From: an uncultured SAR86 cluster bacterium
Lineage (GTDB): Bacteria; Pseudomonadota; Gammaproteobacteria; Magnimaribacterales; D2472
Assembly (NCBI GenBank): GCA_902602595.1
Contig: CACKRJ010000005.1
Span: 1-64,000, forward strand
DNA length: 64,000 nt
Reading direction: 5' to 3'
Shown here: in pieces, positions 1 through 14,117 of the stretch
Numbering within the stretch: position 1 is the first letter of the stretch
How the letters are laid out: each line of letters begins with the position of its first letter
Made by a program: the position numbers and the translations under genes
The notes under the pieces: generated by a model
Seen by the model: only the letters and a program-made list of their open reading frames with translations
Databases searched by the model: none
Told to the model about the DNA's origin: nothing

Positions 1-1365
1 GATCTAAATTTACCAAGTTTAGGCGATAGAGTATCAGGGGTCATTTCGCTGGACCAAGAAAAGATTTTGGGGCAAGGTTTCTTAGAGCAAGTATATGCCC
101 AAGCTCCATTGATTGATGATCCAATTATTCAAGAATACACTGAGCTACTGATATATAAACTTTCCGAAACATCTCAAGTCAAGGATAGGCAGTTTACTAT
201 CGTACTAATAGATGAAAAGTCTCTCAATGCTTTTGCTGCTCCTGGAGGAGTTGTAGGGGTAAATGGGGGTTTGTTTTTAAATGCAGGAAATGAAGCTCAA
301 TTAGCATCTGTTTTAGGTCATGAGCTAGCTCATTTGAGTCAAAGACATTTTGCTAGAAATATCTTGAGAGGAAGAGACACTAACCTTGCTTCCTCTTTGG
401 TTATGGTATCAGCAATAGCATTAGCTATTATCTCAAATAATCCAACTGCTTTTATTACAGGGCCTGCTGCACTTCAACAACAGCAATTGAGGTATAGTCG
501 AATTTTTGAAAGAGAAGCAGATAGGTATGGTTTTAATAATTTAATAGCTGCAGGGTATGATCCTGCAGGTATGGGTCAAATGTTTGAAAATATGGCTAAA
601 GTTAGAAAATTAGCTGGAGATAATCCTCCGGAATTTTTATTAACTCACCCTATTACATCTTCAAGGGTAAGTGACGCTTTTAATGCAGCTGACCAAATAG
701 AATTTACCGGCGGCAAAAAAAATACAATCAACTTTGAATTTGTAAAAGGAAGGTTAAAAGCGAGATATAACTCATTATCCCCTCAGGCTGCAGTCAAATA
801 CTTTGAAAAATTGTATAAAGATTATCCAACTAATGAAAATAAATATGCATACATAAGTGCACTCCAATCTAATGGACAAACTGATCAAGCGTTAAGAGAA
901 ATGGATGAGATATTAATCAAATTTCCAAAAAATTTAATTTTAAATATAACAAAATCAGAAATTTTATTATCTGGTCAACGGCTTAGTGATGCTCTAAAGA
1001 ACATCGATCAAGTTCTTAATATTTCCCCAGGAAACTATCCCGCATCAATTATTAAATCTAAAATCTTAAGCTCTAAAAAAGAATTTATTAAATCTGAAGA
1101 GATTTTAAGAGACCTTTTGATTAGCAAAAATCGTGATCCAGGTTTATGGATGCAATTATCTGAAGTTCAAAGAGCCGGCAAAAATATTGTTGGATATCAT
1201 CTCAGTCGTGGTGAGTATTACACATTGATTGGAGATTTTGATAATGCGCTCAACCAATTTCAATTTGCATTAAGTCTCTCAGGCAATTCCTTTCAAACTT
1301 CAGAAACCATTATGACGAAGATAAAATTTGCTAAAGAAAGATTAGATAAAAGAAGAGGCTTCTAA
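1..1365 (+). CDS. M48-family zinc metalloprotease with C-terminal TPR-like region (BepA/YfgC-like), 5' truncated by window edge
   Basis: Frame stays open to base 1 (DLNLPSLGDRVSGVISLDQEKILGQGF...), so the track start at 67 (TTG) is probably artificial; HELAH zinc motif, downstream EREAD, helical repeats at C-terminus. Confidence 0.88.
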   Translation, partial: DLNLPSLGDRVSGVISLDQEKILGQGFLEQVYAQAPLIDDPIIQEYTELLIYKLSETSQVKDRQFTIVLIDEKSLNAFAAPGGVVGVNGGLFLNAGNEAQLASVLGHELAHLSQRHFARNILRGRDTNLASSLVMVSAIALAIISNNPTAFITGPAALQQQQLRYSRIFEREADRYGFNNLIAAGYDPAGMGQMFENMAKVRKLAGDNPPEFLLTHPITSSRVSDAFNAADQIEFTGGKKNTINFEFVKGRLKARYNSLSPQAAVKYFEKLYKDYPTNENKYAYISALQSNGQTDQALREMDEILIKFPKNLILNITKSEILLSGQRLSDALKNIDQVLNISPGNYPASIIKSKILSSKKEFIKSEEILRDLLISKNRDPGLWMQLSEVQRAGKNIVGYHLSRGEYYTLIGDFDNALNQFQFALSLSGNSFQTSETIMTKIKFAKERLDKRRGF

Positions 1366-2624
1366 GAGCTAATTTTTTCCTTAGGTGGAATCTTGAATCC
1401 CAGTGCCGCCAAACACCCAGCAAATGGAATTGCCAGCAGTGGGACTTGAGAAAATACCAATCCGAATGATTTTGATATAAGAATAAATCCACTGCCAGAA
1501 AAATCACCCATTCTTACTAAAAATGTATCAACCATAACTGTTGATTTGTATCTATCTGTTCTTTTTAAATAACTGAAAACCACTTCTCTAGTTGGCTTAT
1601 TAATACCATATTCAAACAGCCTCAAAATAATGGTAATGAAGAATACATACCCAATTGTTGGATTGAGGTAATAGCCTATGAATGCACCCATAAATATAAA
1701 TCCGTAGAACATTAAAATAGTTTTGGGTCCTGCAAATCTAATAATTGCTGAGGTTAAGAAAAATTGGGTAAACAAAGTAAGAATTGTTACTGTTTGCTCT
1801 ATATTGCTAAAGAAAATAATTCTATTTCCGCCATCCGAAGACCAGGCATTCACTATATCTATTGAGGTAACCCAATGGATGGTCATCATTGCTGTCCAAA
1901 GATACATATACAACCCTATTGATCTAATTTGAGATGAGGAAATAAGATTTTTTAGAGCATCTAAACTTGTTCCACCTGCAGCCTTATCTATATCATCTAA
2001 TGATACAAACCTTTTAAGTAAAATTATGCCTGTAGCCAATGCCAGTATTAGGAAAATAATTGAAATTAATGTAAAAAAAATAATGCCTGATTCATTAAAT
2101 GTTGATGCCAATTGCTTAGAAATCTCTGAGCCGAGAAATGCTCCCAGTGATCCTCCTGCAGCAATCACACCAAAAACATTAGCAGCACCATCTCCACGAA
2201 ATAGATTAATTATTACTACCCAAAAAATAGAAACCACAAAAAAAGAATAGACATTGCACCAAATATAAAATATTTGACTTAGCCAGATTGCCGAGGAAAG
2301 GTTAAAAAATTTCCATAAAACAATAAATATTGATAAATTAAGAATAAAGAATGAGTAGCACCCAACTAATACTCCTTTTAAATTTCTTCGTGAAGCAAGC
2401 CATGAATAAATTGGATTTAAAAGCAGCATTACAAAAGCGCCTACAGCCAAAAGATACGGCAGTATATCTGAGTTCTGCACAGCCATTTCATTTCTTACAG
2501 GACGCAAGATATACCATGAGCACAAAACTAAAAAAAAGAAAAATCCTGCAAGTCCAGATTCTTTAGTGAATGACAGTGATAGTCTCGAGAGGGAATTTTT
2601 TATGAAACTAATTAATATTGACAT
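1362..2624 (-). CDS. NTP/NDP exchange transporter-like (ATP:ADP antiporter / MFS-like) membrane protein
   Basis: About 12 hydrophobic segments; RPVRNEMAV near N-terminus and NLFRGDGAANVFGVIAAGGSLGAFLGS resemble Npt1/Npt2-like family proteins. Confidence 0.65.
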   Translation of the reverse strand: MSILISFIKNSLSRLSLSFTKESGLAGFFFFLVLCSWYILRPVRNEMAVQNSDILPYLLAVGAFVMLLLNPIYSWLASRRNLKGVLVGCYSFFILNLSIFIVLWKFFNLSSAIWLSQIFYIWCNVYSFFVVSIFWVVIINLFRGDGAANVFGVIAAGGSLGAFLGSEISKQLASTFNESGIIFFTLISIIFLILALATGIILLKRFVSLDDIDKAAGGTSLDALKNLISSSQIRSIGLYMYLWTAMMTIHWVTSIDIVNAWSSDGGNRIIFFSNIEQTVTILTLFTQFFLTSAIIRFAGPKTILMFYGFIFMGAFIGYYLNPTIGYVFFITIILRLFEYGINKPTREVVFSYLKRTDRYKSTVMVDTFLVRMGDFSGSGFILISKSFGLVFSQVPLLAIPFAGCLAALGFKIPPKEKISS

Positions 2625-3892: not shown

Positions 3893-5179
3893 TTATCTTA
3901 AAAAATTTGACCAAGCAGGCTCTCTGACTTCTCCATTTGATGCAGGTAATTTAAACTTTGCACCACTCAGACTAAATCCAGCCAACATACTTAGATTTTG
4001 TTCTTTAATACCATAGATTACCATATTACCGTTAGGAGCAACACTAGGTGATTCATCCATCTTTGCTTCAGTTAAGATTCTTATAAAATTTTCTTTTTTG
4101 TATTTAAGAGCGATGTGAAATAAACCATCATTAGATCGATGAACAAAGATCACTCCCTCTTCCTTCGGTAGATATGAAGCTTTTGCATTATACGTTCCCT
4201 CAAAGGAAATACGCTTAGCTTTTGGATTTAATTTTCTTAGATCTAGCTCATAAATTTGCGGTGATCCAGAGCGACCGCTTGTAAATAAAATTTTATTGCC
4301 TTTAGGTGACCATGAGGACTCTGTATCAATCGCAAATTGATTGGTCATCCTGGTTAAGGTTCGATCGCGCAACCTTAAAATATAAATTTCTGCATTTCCA
4401 TCTTGGTAAAGAGTTAAAGAAAGATATTTTCCGTCAGGCGACCATGAGGGAGAGCTAATCTGAGTATCTTTTGATAGCACGGCCTCTCTTTTCCCAGAAG
4501 CTATTTCTTGTATAAACACTTTTGCAATTCCTGTCTCAAATGATACATATGCAACTCTTTTTCCATCTGGTGACCATGAGGGAGATATAATAGGCTCAGT
4601 ACTTGATAAAAGAATTTTTTCATTAGCTCCGTCTGAATCAGCTAACATAAGTTTGTATGTAGAGATTAGTTGAGAATCTTTTATTTCATTTACATACAAC
4701 AACCTTGTTGCAGCTATGCCTTTAATACCTGTGATTGATTCATATATTCCATCACTTGTATAATGAGCAAGCTGTCTAATTTGATTTGGTATACCAAAAA
4801 CTTTCGAGCTCCGCACTTTTCTCTTTTTGTGAATATCATAAATTTCGTAATTAATATCTAATGAATTATTTGACTTAACTATTTTTCCAGTAACTAAATA
4901 ATCCATTCCAAGCAATTTCCAATCACTAAAAACTAATTCATCATCAATGATTTTTACAGGTAATAATAATTCTTTATCAAGAATAGAAAATTCTCCTGTG
5001 CGAATTAAGTCATTCCTCATAATATTATTAAGTTGCTTTGAAACTCTCTTATTTCCTTCAAATGGAATCATTGCTACTTTATAGGGATCTTCAGAGCCCT
5101 TTGTAATTTCTAAAAAAAGTTCTCCTTGACTAAAAGTTGGAATAATCAATAAGGCAACTAATACTAAATTTTTTTTCAT
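3893..5179 (-). CDS. tolB: Tol-Pal system beta-propeller protein TolB
   Basis: Repeated SWSPDGK/WSPxGxK blades, signal peptide, synteny. Confidence 0.96.
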   Translation of the reverse strand: MKKNLVLVALLIIPTFSQGELFLEITKGSEDPYKVAMIPFEGNKRVSKQLNNIMRNDLIRTGEFSILDKELLLPVKIIDDELVFSDWKLLGMDYLVTGKIVKSNNSLDINYEIYDIHKKRKVRSSKVFGIPNQIRQLAHYTSDGIYESITGIKGIAATRLLYVNEIKDSQLISTYKLMLADSDGANEKILLSSTEPIISPSWSPDGKRVAYVSFETGIAKVFIQEIASGKREAVLSKDTQISSPSWSPDGKYLSLTLYQDGNAEIYILRLRDRTLTRMTNQFAIDTESSWSPKGNKILFTSGRSGSPQIYELDLRKLNPKAKRISFEGTYNAKASYLPKEEGVIFVHRSNDGLFHIALKYKKENFIRILTEAKMDESPSVAPNGNMVIYGIKEQNLSMLAGFSLSGAKFKLPASNGEVREPAWSNFLR

Positions 5180-5811
5180 GATGGATTAAAACTTATGGCA
5201 ATTATTTGAAACTCACTCTCATACAAATTTTTTGGCATTGAATTAAAAAAACTAAAAGTCTCCACTCTCCTTACAGCTTGAAGAGCTGAATTATCAAATC
5301 GTATATTGCCGCTACTTTTAATAAGCTCTACGCCTATGATCCTTCCTGAGGAACGAATTTTTAGCCTTAGATTTGCAACTAAATCCTTGGGAATATTTCT
5401 AGGTTTCATCCAAGCACTCTCTATGGTGGTAATAATTTTTTGAGCATAGATTGAAATTTCTTGCTTCTTTCTATCAATCTCAATCTCACTCTCTTCTGAT
5501 AAAAGGTTAGCTATGCTAGATTCAATCAACTCATTGTTTTGTTTGATCTGAATTACATCAGTGACTTTGGAATAGACAATATTTTGAGGGATTTGATCCA
5601 ATGGAGCTTCTATTGTCTTAGGGGCAGTCGGAATTTGTTTTTTTACATTTTGAGATGGTAAATCAAACTTTAGTTCTATTTGAAGAGGTTTTGATATCAA
5701 GAGTGTCTGAGAAGTATTAGAGTCAAAGGTTCCATATATATATAAAAAAAGAATTGCATGGATGCAAAAAGAAAACAGCGATGCATGTAAATATCTATAA
5801 TTAGCTATCAT
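5176..5811 (-). CDS. tolA: TolA (short), TonB-like C-terminal domain
   Basis: N-terminal TM segment, C-terminal LRLKIRSSGRIIGVELIKSSGNIRFDNSALQAVRR; between tolB and tolR. Confidence 0.88.
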   Translation of the reverse strand: MIANYRYLHASLFSFCIHAILFLYIYGTFDSNTSQTLLISKPLQIELKFDLPSQNVKKQIPTAPKTIEAPLDQIPQNIVYSKVTDVIQIKQNNELIESSIANLLSEESEIEIDRKKQEISIYAQKIITTIESAWMKPRNIPKDLVANLRLKIRSSGRIIGVELIKSSGNIRFDNSALQAVRRVETFSFFNSMPKNLYESEFQIIAISFNPS

Positions 5812-6223
5812 AGCCTGAAGTAATTATTCCTATCTTTTGAATTCCTAAACTTTGGATACTTGCCATACCCTTGGCCACATAATCGAAAGGTACTTTTGCA
5901 TCACTTTTAAAAACGATTTCAATATCTGGGTTTGCTTGATAAATAATTTTAGCCTTATTTTTTAACTCCATTAAAGAGATAGGTAATTGCTCCTCACCCA
6001 GATTAATAAAATACTCGCCTTGGCTATCAATTGAGATGACAAGCGGCTCACTTGAAACTGACATTTTAGTGGTATCAGTTTTAGGAAGATTTACCTCAAT
6101 ACCTTGAATAAGGAGAGGAGAAAGAACCATAAAAATGATTAGAAGTACTAGCATCACATCAATGTATGGAACAACATTAATGTCAGCGTTTAACTTTTTT
6201 CTTTTACCAATTCTGTATATCAA
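5801..6223 (-). CDS. tolR: TolR, ExbD/TolR family
   Basis: NVVPYIDVMLVLLIIFMVLSPL motif; synteny. Confidence 0.96.
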   Translation of the reverse strand: MIYRIGKRKKLNADINVVPYIDVMLVLLIIFMVLSPLLIQGIEVNLPKTDTTKMSVSSEPLVISIDSQGEYFINLGEEQLPISLMELKNKAKIIYQANPDIEIVFKSDAKVPFDYVAKGMASIQSLGIQKIGIITSGYDS

Positions 6224-6900
6224 AGTTTTGCTTTAACCGTTTGTCTATAAAGAATGCTAGCCAACTCTTCGCCAAATACAGAAGATTGTTGTAATTGGGT
6301 ATCTGAATCTGATGCAAACCTATTGTATGTAACTACTGCTGGTATTGCAGCAAAAAGACCTAGAGCGGTCGCAACTAGAGCTTCTGAGATTCCTGGAGCA
6401 ACAGCATTGATGGTTGCTTGAGTAGCATCAGAAAGACCCTGAAATGAATTAATAATCCCCCACACTGTTCCAAAAAGTCCAACATATGGGCTCACCGATC
6501 CAACGTTAGCTAAAAAAGGAAGATGGTGCATCAATGACTCCTCTTCTCTTGCCAGGGATACTCTTATCGCTCTGTTAACACTTTCCAAGTCTTCAATTGT
6601 AATTTGCTGACCCTCACTAAGCCTTAAAAATTCTCCAAATCCATGTTTAAAAACTCGTAAAGAACCTACAAGTTCATCATTAGGAATTTCATCCATACTT
6701 TTGTATAGCTCATTTAAATCCTTCCCGGACCAGAATTCTTTTTCAAAGTCTTTGTTTGCTTGTTTTATTCTGTTTAAATTAAAATGCCGTTCAAAAATAA
6801 CAATCCATGAGACGATAGAAACCATTAACAATAAAATCATCACCAACTGAACAATCAGGCTCGCCTGAAGAAATAAATCTATAACTGAAAAGTCATCCAT
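6220..6900 (-). CDS. tolQ: TolQ, MotA/TolQ/ExbB proton channel
   Basis: GLFGTVWGIINSF and GISEALVATALGLFAAIPAVVTYNRF motifs. Confidence 0.96.
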   Translation of the reverse strand: MDDFSVIDLFLQASLIVQLVMILLLMVSIVSWIVIFERHFNLNRIKQANKDFEKEFWSGKDLNELYKSMDEIPNDELVGSLRVFKHGFGEFLRLSEGQQITIEDLESVNRAIRVSLAREEESLMHHLPFLANVGSVSPYVGLFGTVWGIINSFQGLSDATQATINAVAPGISEALVATALGLFAAIPAVVTYNRFASDSDTQLQQSSVFGEELASILYRQTVKAKL

Positions 6901-6901
6901 A

Positions 6902-7327
6902 TTAGCTCTTAAATAAATTTAATAAACCCATAGGGAAAGCTTTAGGTTTGCCTGAATCATTATTAATAAAACAAACCTCCACTTCGCCCTTGCAAATGAG
7001 TGTATCATTTTTTGAATTCAAAACTGATTGAAAAAATATAGTTCTAGCTCTACTAATTAACTCTATTTCAGTTTTTACAATCAACTCATCTTCTAATATT
7101 GCGGGATGGTAATAAAAAAGATTGATTGATTTAACAACATAAGACTCATTCCCTTTTGACATTGCATCTGTTTGAGATAAATTATTTTCAATTAAAAACT
7201 GAGATCTAGCTCTCTCTAAGTATTTAAGATAATTTGCATGGTAAACCACGCCCTGAAAATCTGTATCTTCTACATAAACTCTGCAATGGAAATCTTTAGA
7301 CTTGAAACGAGGATTCATGTTGCTCAA
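6902..7327 (-). CDS. ybgC: Acyl-CoA thioesterase YbgC (hotdog fold)
   Basis: VYVEDTDFQGVVYHANYLKYLERARS hotdog active-site motif; precedes tolQ. Start could be the internal ATG at 7318. Confidence 0.93.
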   Translation of the reverse strand: MSNMNPRFKSKDFHCRVYVEDTDFQGVVYHANYLKYLERARSQFLIENNLSQTDAMSKGNESYVVKSINLFYYHPAILEDELIVKTEIELISRARTIFFQSVLNSKNDTLICKGEVEVCFINNDSGKPKAFPMGLLNLFKS

Positions 7328-7718
7328 TATCTACCTGAAAAAGGTACCGAAGAATTTCTACAAAATCTTCCCACATTAAATCAATAGTCATGGGAGAAAA
7401 ATCTAGCTCTGGAATCAAAGATCCTGCAAGTATCCTTACTTTAATTGGTCGGCGATTAAACTTGTAGATTAAAGCTGGAAACTCCCCGTCTCCTGTGGCT
7501 GCCAAAACTTGATCCCACCAATCTTGAGATGGTTCAGATCCGTCTCCATATCTTTTGCATTCTAAGCACCATCTGCCTAATTTTAAATCAGGCAATTCTT
7601 TTGTTCGTGTTTGCTCAAGAATTCTTTTAACGGGCTGATTTAAACCTAACTGCTCCATAAGAAGGTTACCAATTTCTCTTTCAAAATTAGCTCCTTTAGT
7701 TCTTGAATTAATTGCCAC
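7296..7718 (-). CDS. Putative PD-(D/E)XK nuclease, phage-type Holliday junction resolvase-like
   Basis: KGANFEREIGNLL helix then LPDLKLGRWCLECKR (D44-x8-E53-C-K55), followed by WWDQV..ALIYKFNRRPIKVRI; occupies the slot where ruvC(AB) is expected. Confidence 0.72.
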   Translation of the reverse strand: MAINSRTKGANFEREIGNLLMEQLGLNQPVKRILEQTRTKELPDLKLGRWCLECKRYGDGSEPSQDWWDQVLAATGDGEFPALIYKFNRRPIKVRILAGSLIPELDFSPMTIDLMWEDFVEILRYLFQVDIEQHESSFQV

Positions 7719-7720
7719 AA

Positions 7721-8458
7721 TTACTCCCCTTCAGTAAAGTCTTCAGGAAATTCAGCATTTGTATGAACCTCTTGCACATCGTCAAGGTCATCCATGAAAT
7801 TCATAATTTTAAGAACTTTCTCAGATGCTTCTTGATCTAGATTAACTAGCGTATCAGCTCTCATTGTATTTTCCGCTAACAATGTTTCAATATTTCTTTT
7901 TTTAAAAGCCTCAATAACAGCAGATAGATTTGCTGGAGTGGAAATGATTTCAAAATAATCTTCTGTCACAGTAAAGTCATCTGCCCCAGCATCTAATGCA
8001 ATCTCCATGATTAGATCTTCGTCATGAGAAAGATCCACTTGCACGACTCCTAGCTTATTAAAAAGGTAAGCGACTGAACCATCAGTACCCATATTGCCTC
8101 CAAATTTTGAAAAAGCATGGCGCACATCTGCGACAGTTCTATTTCTATTATCCGTCATCGTCTCAACTAGAATTGCAACACCGTTAGGACCATAGCCTTC
8201 AAAAGTTAATTCTTCAATTACACCCATTTCACCTGTTCCAGAACCTTTTTGGATTGCTCGCTTGATCGTATCTTTAGGCATATTTGCAGCATTCGCTTTG
8301 TCCAAAGCTAGTCGAAGTCTGGGATTATCACCTGGATCTGGCCCTCCTTTTGCTGCAACTGTAATCTCCCTAATAACCTTGGTCCATACTTTTCCTCGGG
8401 ATGCATCCTGCCTTGCTTTACGATGCTTAATGTTTGCCCATTTGGAATGACCAGCCAT
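7721..8458 (-). CDS. yebC: YebC/PmpR-family transcription/translation regulator
   Basis: MAGHSKWANIKHRKARQDASRGKVWTKVIREITVAAKGG signature. Confidence 0.97.
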   Translation of the reverse strand: MAGHSKWANIKHRKARQDASRGKVWTKVIREITVAAKGGPDPGDNPRLRLALDKANAANMPKDTIKRAIQKGSGTGEMGVIEELTFEGYGPNGVAILVETMTDNRNRTVADVRHAFSKFGGNMGTDGSVAYLFNKLGVVQVDLSHDEDLIMEIALDAGADDFTVTEDYFEIISTPANLSAVIEAFKKRNIETLLAENTMRADTLVNLDQEASEKVLKIMNFMDDLDDVQEVHTNAEFPEDFTEGE

Positions 8459-10225
8459 CTATTGCTCCGGTTCAAAAGTTGACTTGATCTTCAACTCATC
8501 AAGCTGATCATCAGAGACTATGCCAGGAGCATCAGTAAGCAAACAAGATGCGCTTTGTGTTTTAGGAAAAGCAATAACATCACGTATATTAGTCGTATTA
8601 GATAGCAACATAACAATTCTATCTAAACCAAACGCAATTCCTCCATGAGGCGGACATCCAGATGACAATGCTGATAAAAGGAAACCGAATTTTTCCTTAG
8701 CCTCATCTGAAGAAATGCCAAGTATAGAAAATATCTCCCTTTGCATAGAAGGCTCATACACTCTTAAAGAACCACCCCCAATCTCATAACCATTTAAAAC
8801 AAAGTCATATGCACACGCCAATGCATTATCTGGATCATTTTTTAATTCATCAACGGTTACAGCAGGTAAAGTAAATGGGTGATGTAATGAAGTTAGATTG
8901 TTATCTTTATTTCTTTCAAACATTGGAAAATCTACTATCCAACATGGCGCCCATGAAGAACTCATTAAACTTAAATCTTCGCCAAGTCTTTTAATTAGTG
9001 AGCTCATTGAAAGATTTACAATATCTGCCTTACCAGCTCCAAAAAATATAATGTCATTATTCTGTGCATTTAGAGAAACAAGAATGGAATTAATTGTTTC
9101 TTGTTGAAAAAATTTGAGTATTGGAGATTGAAGTCCATTTTCTTGATCCAAATCTACAACTTTTATATATGCAAGACCTTTAGCGCCCAACTTACCTACA
9201 TAATCGGTGTACTCATCAATTTTTTTTCTTGTCATAGATGCAGCTTCTGGAACCTTAAGAGCTACAACCCTTGAAGAAGTATCATTTGCTGGGCCAGAAA
9301 ATACTTTAAATTCTTCATCTTTTACATGCTCAGAAATATCATGAAGTTCAAGCGGAATTCTTAAATCAGGCTTATCACATCCATATTTATTAATTGATTC
9401 TTTGTATGTGATTCTAGGTACTTCTGCTTTTTGGTAGTCTGTAAATTCAGAGAGCAATGATGAAATCAAATCCTCTCCAAGTTCTATTATTTCTTCAGCA
9501 GAAATAAATGAAGCTTCAATATCAACTTGAGTAAATTCAGGCTGTCTATCAGCGCGCAAGTCTTCATCCCTAAAACATTTAGCAATTTGATAGTATTTAT
9601 CCAACCCACCAATCATTAACAATTGTTTAAATAACTGAGGAGATTGAGGTAATGCAAAAAACTCTCCTGGATGCACTCTACTTGGGACTAAATAATCTCT
9701 TGCTCCTTCAGGCGTAGCTTTTGTCAATATTGGAGTCTCGACTTCATGAAAATTATTCTTTTCTAAAATAGATCTTATCTTTGAGGTGATCTGAGATCTC
9801 TTTACCAGCCTTTGATTAACATCAGGGCGTCTTAAATCTAAAAATCTATGTTTAAGCCTGACATCTTCACTAACATCTTGATAGTCATCCAGAGGGAATT
9901 GAGGAGTAGCAGCTAGGCTAAAAATTTTTAAACTGTTTGCTTCAATTTCTATCTCTCCTGTAGCCATTTTTGGATTTATAGCGCCTTCAACCCTCTTTCT
10001 TACCAATCCTTTGATATTGACGACATACTCACTTCTGCAAGAATCTGCAGTATCAAATATTTCTTTCAAATCTGGATTAAAAACAACTTGAACTATTCCA
10101 TGTAAATCACGAACATCTAAAAAAATTACTCCACCATGATCTCTTCGCTTGTGAACCCATCCAGAAATCTCAATATTGCTACCAATGTCTGAACTATTAA
10201 TATCTCCGCAATAATGTGAACGCAT
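8459..10225 (-). CDS. aspS: Aspartyl-tRNA synthetase
   Basis: Class II motifs; [73 protein letters not shown]. Confidence 0.98.
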
Positions 10226-13109: not shown

Positions 13110-14117
13110 TTATTTCTTAGCAGCTCTCTTAGCAGAGGGTATATATGCCTTTCTAATCTCTTTGACCAAGACATCTCTGACTTTAGTATTTTCTCTCAAA
13201 AACTTGCTAGCATTTACCTTTCCTTGGCCAATCTTTTCTCCATTATGGCTATACCATGATCCAGATTTTTCAACTAATTCAAGCTTTTGACCGAGCTCTA
13301 AAATTTCTCCTTCAGTATTAATCCCCTCTCCATACATGATCTGGAATTCTGCTTGCTTGAATGGAGGTGAGACTTTGTTCTTAACAACTTTAACTCTAGT
13401 CTCATTGCCTACAACCTCCTCACCCTCTTTCACTGCTCCAATTCGTCTTATATCCAATCGAACTGAAGAGTAAAATTTAAGGGCATTTCCTCCAGTGGTG
13501 GTTTCTGGATTACCAAACATTACGCCAATCTTCATCCTAATTTGATTGATAAAAATAACCATAGCATTAGATCTCTGGATATTACCTGTGATTTTTCTTA
13601 GTGCTTGTGACATTAATCGTGCCTGTAATCCTACATGGTGATCACCCATATCCCCTTCAATTTCCGCACGAGGTGTTAGTGCTGCAACAGAATCAACAAC
13701 AATCAAATCTACACTTCCCGATTTAACAAGCATATCTGTTACCTCTAATGCCTGCTCTCCAGTATCTGGCTGAGACAATAAAAGTTCGTCTACATTCACG
13801 CCAAGTTTTTCAGCATAATTTGGATCCAGCGCATGTTCAGCATCTATAAATGCTGCTGTACCACCTGCTTTTTGGCATTCAGCAATGGCTTGGAGTGTTA
13901 GGGTTGTTTTTCCAGATGATTCAGGGCCAAAAATTTCAACCACCCTTCCCTTTGGAAGACCTCCAATGCCTAAAGCTATATCCAAACCAAGAGAACCAGT
14001 TGAAACAGAGGGGATGTCTACTATCTCCCTGTCTCCCATTTTCATAACAGTACCTTTACCAAATTGTTTTTCTATTTGCGATAAAGCCTCGCTTAAATTT
14101 TTATCTTTGTCTGACAT
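13110..14117 (-). CDS. recA: Recombinase RecA
   Basis: [13 protein letters not shown] Walker A, full-length RecA core. Confidence 0.99.

Follow-up and report, generated by a model that had tools for sequence, protein, structure and literature searches.

A nuclease gene in the yebC–ybgC interval

The window analysed here is a 64,000-nucleotide stretch of contig CACKRJ010000005.1 from an uncultured SAR86 cluster bacterium. It carries a minus-strand gene row that runs from aspS (positions 8459–10225) and yebC (7721–8458) to ybgC (6902–7327), tolQ (6220–6900), tolR (5801–6223), tolA (5176–5811) and tolB (3893–5179), with pal following tolB. The yebC gene was recognized by its Pfam YebC domains, and its orthologue in a closed SAR86 genome is matched by Escherichia coli YebC. 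The thioesterase gene ybgC was recognized by Pfam 4HBT, and aspS and the tol genes were assigned from translation and synteny. Between yebC and ybgC lies a 140-amino-acid ORF (7296–7718, minus strand), exactly where the first-pass annotation of this DNA had placed it, which begins with a GTG codon at position 7718 and stops at 7296. Only 2 nt separate the yebC stop from its start, and it overlaps ybgC by 32 nt, so this ORF is embedded in the gene row. No partner methylase is encoded in the window operon. The window also retains recA (13110–14117, minus strand; identified by translation and by an orthologue in the closed SAR86 genome), and with it the strand exchange from which Holliday junctions arise.

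The ruvC, ruvA and ruvB genes occupy this interval in most of the other gammaproteobacteria that were sampled, giving the order yebC–ruvCAB–ybgC–tol. Of 20 loci examined around ruvC, 19 have yebC immediately upstream and 17 have tol genes on the downstream side; in one of these, the three intervening genes were identified by NCBIfam as ruvC, ruvA and ruvB. The linkage of yebC to ruvC and of these genes to ybgC and tol has been noted previously (PMC3403352). The first-pass annotation described this context as common to Pseudomonas, E. coli and many relatives, which holds for most sampled genomes but not for E. coli, where yebC–ruvC–ruvA–ruvB is not adjacent to ybgC–tol.

The SAR86 slot contains only the nuclease gene where other genomes have ruvCAB. 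We found this gene in 179 of 200 genomes of the SAR86 order, representing all 22 sampled genera, and it directly follows yebC in all 130 loci inspected (50 of 50 order loci and 80 of 80 genome-contig loci). In one family (f4), ybgC was undetected and tolQ is the next gene after the nuclease. Loss of the ORF from the remaining 21 genomes was considered and rejected, because assembly gaps leave the slot unassembled there: 17 also lack a yebC match, the contig stops just after or inside yebC in three (G054, G046 and G193), and the yebC match of G165 sits on a contig that is not SAR86-like. No assembled slot lacking the nuclease was found in the SAR86 genomes sampled.

RuvABC is missing from the SAR86 order

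RuvABC constitutes the textbook ending of bacterial recombination. A profile for RuvC (PF02075) matched none of the 200 SAR86-order genomes, 40 of which are at least 90% complete, and control genomes included in this search matched as expected. The same family search was positive for 218 of 226 gammaproteobacteria outside SAR86, including genomes of 0.3–0.4 Mb. In the class-wide sample as a whole, 218 of 229 genomes were positive and three of the 11 blanks were SAR86. Five other gammaproteobacteria (G202, G203, G222, G253 and G292) have neither a RuvC nor a YebC match.

The partner proteins of RuvC are missing as well. RuvA_N gave no match above the cut-off in 101 SAR86 genomes. RuvB_N matches occur in most SAR86 genomes, none exceeding 36.3 bits, and NCBIfam assigns the three that were examined as representatives to DnaX, ClpX and DnaX; for comparison, true RuvB proteins score 492–533 bits on RuvB models. 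The first-pass annotation had reported that all three ruv genes are absent from the slot, and these searches extend that absence to the rest of the window's genome and to the whole order.

A closed SAR86 genome (G030; 1,325,892 bp, joined from overlapping tiles) gave the same answer. Two kinds of search with several query orthologues, including those of relatives, left RuvA, RuvB, RuvC, RusA and RadA unmatched beyond paralogues such as RecR, DnaX and RecA. This genome retains RecA, RecG (E = 1.3 × 10−180), YqgF, RecF, RecO and RecR, and the nuclease gene is present in a single copy. As a side observation, G030 shows no orthologue-level match to RadA, RecC or MutH of E. coli. Only roughly 2% of the bacteria that have been sequenced lack RuvA and RuvB, and most of these are parasites whose genomes are condensed (PMC3403352). 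A search of the literature outside subscription found no paper joining SAR86 with ruvC or with Holliday junctions.

The protein has the active site and predicted fold of an Hjc-type resolvase

The 140-amino-acid protein matches the Pfam family PF24608 (PDDEXK_15, ‘Phage putative PDDEXK endonuclease’) at 29.8 bits against a cut-off of 27 (E = 6.7 × 10−7), and each of the 27 sequences in the order-wide alignment matches this family as well (E ≤ 0.01). Residues 1–91 also match PHROG 244 (E = 3.7 × 10−11), a phage protein group named ‘RusA-like Holliday junction resolvase’. These family matches, together with the low dN/dS ratios given below, show that the ORF is a real gene. Where PHROG 244 and its phage members are called ‘Holliday junction resolvase’, the name is an annotation, and ‘RusA-like’ is only a label, which is structurally wrong for a PD-(D/E)XK protein. 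Relatives outside SAR86 are mostly phage proteins, as judged from PHROG 244 and from phage and viral matches, and the earlier description of the nuclease as phage-type is therefore apt.

An alignment of 65 SAR86 and viral sequences has 16 invariant positions: R6, K8, G9, A10, F12, E13, R14, R32, Q36, D44, E53, K55, Y57, W67, W68 and Q70. Among these are the residues of an Hjc-type active site, comprising a motif I glutamate in the N-terminal helix (E13; codon at 7680–7682, minus strand), equivalent to Glu10 in the scheme for phage Hjc_15-6 (PMC8805305), a motif II aspartate that serves as a metal ligand (D44; 7587–7589, minus strand) and a motif III Glu-x-Lys (E53-C54-K55; 7554–7562, minus strand). 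The residues first read from the translation, namely E13, P43-D44, E53-C-K55, W67-W68-x-Q70 and the segment KFNRRPIKVRI, are all in place.

An AlphaFold model of the protein (pLDDT 88.9, pTM 0.86) was compared with known structures using Foldseek. The twelve top-ranked matches in the PDB are all archaeal Hjc or Hje resolvases (best E = 4.6 × 10−4, probability 1.0), with TM-scores of a modest 0.37–0.53 that reflect a part of the model that differs. Thus the first-pass expectation of a nuclease fold is borne out by this model, and more specifically the match is to Holliday junction resolvases. Comparison at the level of fold was needed for this assignment, as PDB searches by sequence with either the protein or the 65-row profile returned nothing significant. 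The sequence also has no match to Pfam Hjc (PF01870), and given this and the modest TM-scores, we class the protein as Hjc-like and do not assign it to the Hjc sequence family. In a viral structure library, phage proteins were matched with TM-scores up to 0.81, and the lower-ranked matches include annotated Holliday junction resolvases.

Other identities were considered and set aside. The protein is not RuvC, as PF02075 has no match in the order and the protein matches a different fold. It is not RusA, as there is no PF05866 match and Pfam gives PF24608 only, nor is it RecU, for which neither Pfam nor NCBIfam gives a match. Anti-phage families yielded no notable match for the protein, the only one being a weak and partial match to NYN (E = 0.008).

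Probable in-place replacement of ruvCAB by a phage-type resolvase

Taken together, we consider it probable, at roughly 85%, that the ORF encodes a phage-derived resolvase of the Hjc type, which took over in place from the entire ruvC–ruvA–ruvB cassette in a SAR86 ancestor, with Holliday junction cleavage as its predicted activity. The first-pass annotation had proposed a non-orthologous replacement of RuvC that possibly made RuvAB dispensable. The first part of that proposal is supported by the absence of RuvABC across the order and by the resolvase-like predicted fold, and the second also stands, in the sense that RuvA and RuvB are gone from SAR86. The swap could have occurred as two separate steps, with ruvCAB loss preceding gain of the nuclease gene or the reverse.

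RuvC cuts at preferred sequences, and it depends on the RuvAB motor to bring the junction to them (see also PMC1193525). A resolvase free of such a sequence need would relieve selection on RuvAB, as an enzyme of the Hjc or RusA kind, which recognizes shape, could cut without this motor. We propose that a homodimer of the SAR86 protein binds the four-way junction by its shape, and that the E13-D44-E53-K55 site of each subunit, with Mg2+, would nick one of two opposite strands, after which ligase would seal the duplexes. The junction itself may be moved by RecG where this helicase is present, or else by spontaneous branch migration. There is a precedent for bypass of this kind, in that junctions are processed by the phage enzyme RusA when E. 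coli has been deprived of ruvAB or ruvC (PMC2716532).

If this reading is correct, a free-living and very abundant marine order has swapped RuvABC for one small phage-type gene at the same operon position, and SAR86 offers a natural experiment on whether the main job of RuvAB is to serve RuvC. It would also suggest a function for the large and uncharacterized phage nuclease family PHROG 244/PDDEXK_15.

Comparison with known resolvases

The closest structural counterparts, archaeal Hjc and Hje (PDB 2wcw, 2wiw, 2eo0 and 1ob8), share with the SAR86 protein a PD-(D/E)XK core, the N-terminal helix glutamate, the aspartate and the Glu-x-Lys site, yet are only 18–20% identical to it; the SAR86 protein differs further by its invariant WWxQ helix and by being encoded in an operon of a bacterial chromosome. 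The enzyme Hjc_15-6, from Thermus phage Tth15-6 (PDB 7bgs and 7bnx), uses E10-D40-E53-K55 and cleaves X-shaped DNA (PMC8805305). It is a phage-borne protein of the Hjc type with a site spacing close to that of SAR86, although a direct comparison of its sequence with that of the window protein gives nothing significant. By profile, the SAR86 protein is a direct member of the PDDEXK_15/PHROG 244 nucleases, whose known members are phage-borne and uncharacterized, whereas in SAR86 the gene is fixed in the chromosomes of an entire order.

Displacement of RuvC is already known as a kind of event. RecU has displaced RuvC non-orthologously in Firmicutes and Mollicutes (PMC1193525), and these genomes keep RuvAB, with recU located away from the RuvAB genes in nearly all of them (PMC1193525, PMC3403352). 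SAR86 is an unusually clean case that differs from this precedent in two respects, as RuvAB was lost too and the newcomer occupies the ruv slot itself. RusA of lambdoid prophages is similar in being a phage resolvase able to act without RuvAB or RuvC (PMC2716532), but it belongs to another fold and sequence family, and its bypass was seen in laboratory strains rather than as a fixed replacement. Rare genomes without known resolvases also exist, in which YqgF, RecG–RusA or prophage enzymes may serve (PMC1193525, PMC3403352).

A second lineage carries another Hjc-like ORF at this position

One of the eight non-SAR86 genomes that lack RuvC (G237) carries a 104-amino-acid ORF between yebC and ybgC–tolQ (locus L236, positions 1137–1448, minus strand). 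This ORF recurs at loci L240–L248 within the same gammaproteobacterial family, here called f42 (genomes G237, G426–G429, G431, G432, G435 and G436). In total it is present in 9 of 12 f42 genomes, each time directly after yebC, and RuvC is found in none of the 12. Sister families of the same order show the opposite pattern, with RuvC in 8 of 8 genomes and the 104-amino-acid ORF in 0 of 8.

The f42 protein matches PF24608, PHROG 244 and further phage resolvase families, and, unlike the window protein, its profile directly matches Hjc_15-6 in the PDB (E = 7.9 × 10−6). Its score against Pfam Hjc (PF01870) is 19.9, below the cut-off of 21.1. The f42 and SAR86 nucleases are related at the level of profiles (probability 96%) but are unequal in length and dissimilar in the WWxQ region. 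The family f42 is a second gammaproteobacterial lineage in which ruvC has independently given way to an Hjc-like ORF, a different one, at this position. That RuvC is lost where an Hjc-like gene fills the slot argues more strongly than any other evidence for the SAR86 ORF doing the job of RuvC.

RecG and the case for another nuclease role

RecG was found in the genus of the window, in genera g6 and g7, and in nearly all genomes of other SAR86 families. In contrast, RecG appears absent from genera g2–g5, which belong to the same family as the window's genus, as the helicase matches are of Mfd type or weaker in all 16 genomes sampled (G002, G006, G010, G014, G018, G022, G026, G042, G050, G054, G058, G062, G066, G070, G086 and G092). 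The nuclease persists in g2–g5, and RecG therefore cannot be obligatory across SAR86.

These data bear on the best-surviving alternative, in which the protein is a structure-selective nuclease with some other housekeeping role, such as flap or fork cleavage, recombination-dependent replication, or nicking at mismatches or base damage. Junctions would then be handled by RecG, YqgF or topoisomerase dissolution, and residence in the ruv slot would be incidental. The PD-(D/E)XK fold is indeed common to nucleases of many kinds, a phage resolvase will often accept more than one type of branched DNA, and the closed SAR86 genome encodes both RecG and YqgF, the latter having been suggested as a resolvase, without proof (PMC1193525). 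However, the nuclease is still there in lineages that appear to lack RecG, the top fold matches are junction resolvases without exception, and f42 put a different Hjc-like ORF into this very slot where RuvC was lost. We therefore consider another role unlikely.

Selection, descent and viral copies of the gene

The nuclease gene is under strong purifying selection, with dN/dS values of 0.018–0.079 against copies of the same genus where these could be computed. In a tree of the family, all SAR86 sequences fall in one supported group (100/97) that also has four viral sequences inside it, and families f2 and f3 each form clades, as vertical descent predicts. The tree was rooted at its midpoint and is built on few alignment columns, such that the basal direction of transfer, from phage to SAR86, is the one that appears plausible.

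Few genomes of the class other than those of SAR86 carry a member of the family (3 of 226, beside phage-like genes), but it is common in phages and marine viral contigs. Four marine viral contigs (L144, at positions 5001–5420, L145, L147 and L153) carry SAR86-type copies that are 50–56% identical. The closest viral copies lie among phage-structural-looking genes and branch beside f3 or near f1, and so viruses, possibly those of SAR86, have probably exchanged the gene with SAR86 hosts.

A mainly phage-borne family with SAR86-like copies in marine viruses could raise the suspicion that the ORF is a mobile or selfish remnant, either a phage or prophage gene that landed by chance where ruvCAB had been lost, or a nuclease of restriction or anti-phage defence. 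This reading is largely refuted by conservation, and we judge it very improbable: dN/dS ratios of 0.02–0.08 and the constant slot in every family sampled from the order, together with the f2 and f3 clades of the tree, led us to reject a prophage remnant, and the lack of a notable anti-phage family match and of a methylase in the operon speaks against a defence role. That RuvABC is present but was missed, through incomplete genomes (the window's own is 82.8% complete) or divergent sequences, is refuted by the order-wide profiles, by the closed genome and by the use of relatives' orthologues as queries, in searches that readily recover RuvC in relatives.

Further occupants of the slot

The preferred reading, that a phage-type resolvase took over from RuvABC in SAR86, can be extended beyond this order. 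We give about even odds to the broader view that, in bacteria with small genomes, phage nucleases of the Hjc type have taken the slot on more than one occasion, a different one each time, and that chromosomal recombination in g2–g5 relies on one small resolvase, with neither RuvAB nor RecG. If true, recombination in g2–g5 would dispense with both of the branch-migration motors that are known best.

One contig that was binned with a SAR86 genome but does not itself look like SAR86 (G165:C26) has a 97-amino-acid ORF between yebC and tolQ (L237, positions 2265–2555, plus strand). Further ORFs of this type had no match in 299 Pseudomonadota genomes, an empty answer that is no proof of absence. The ORF matches PHROG 2002, named ‘Holliday junction resolvase’, and possibly represents a third swap, in another bacterium.
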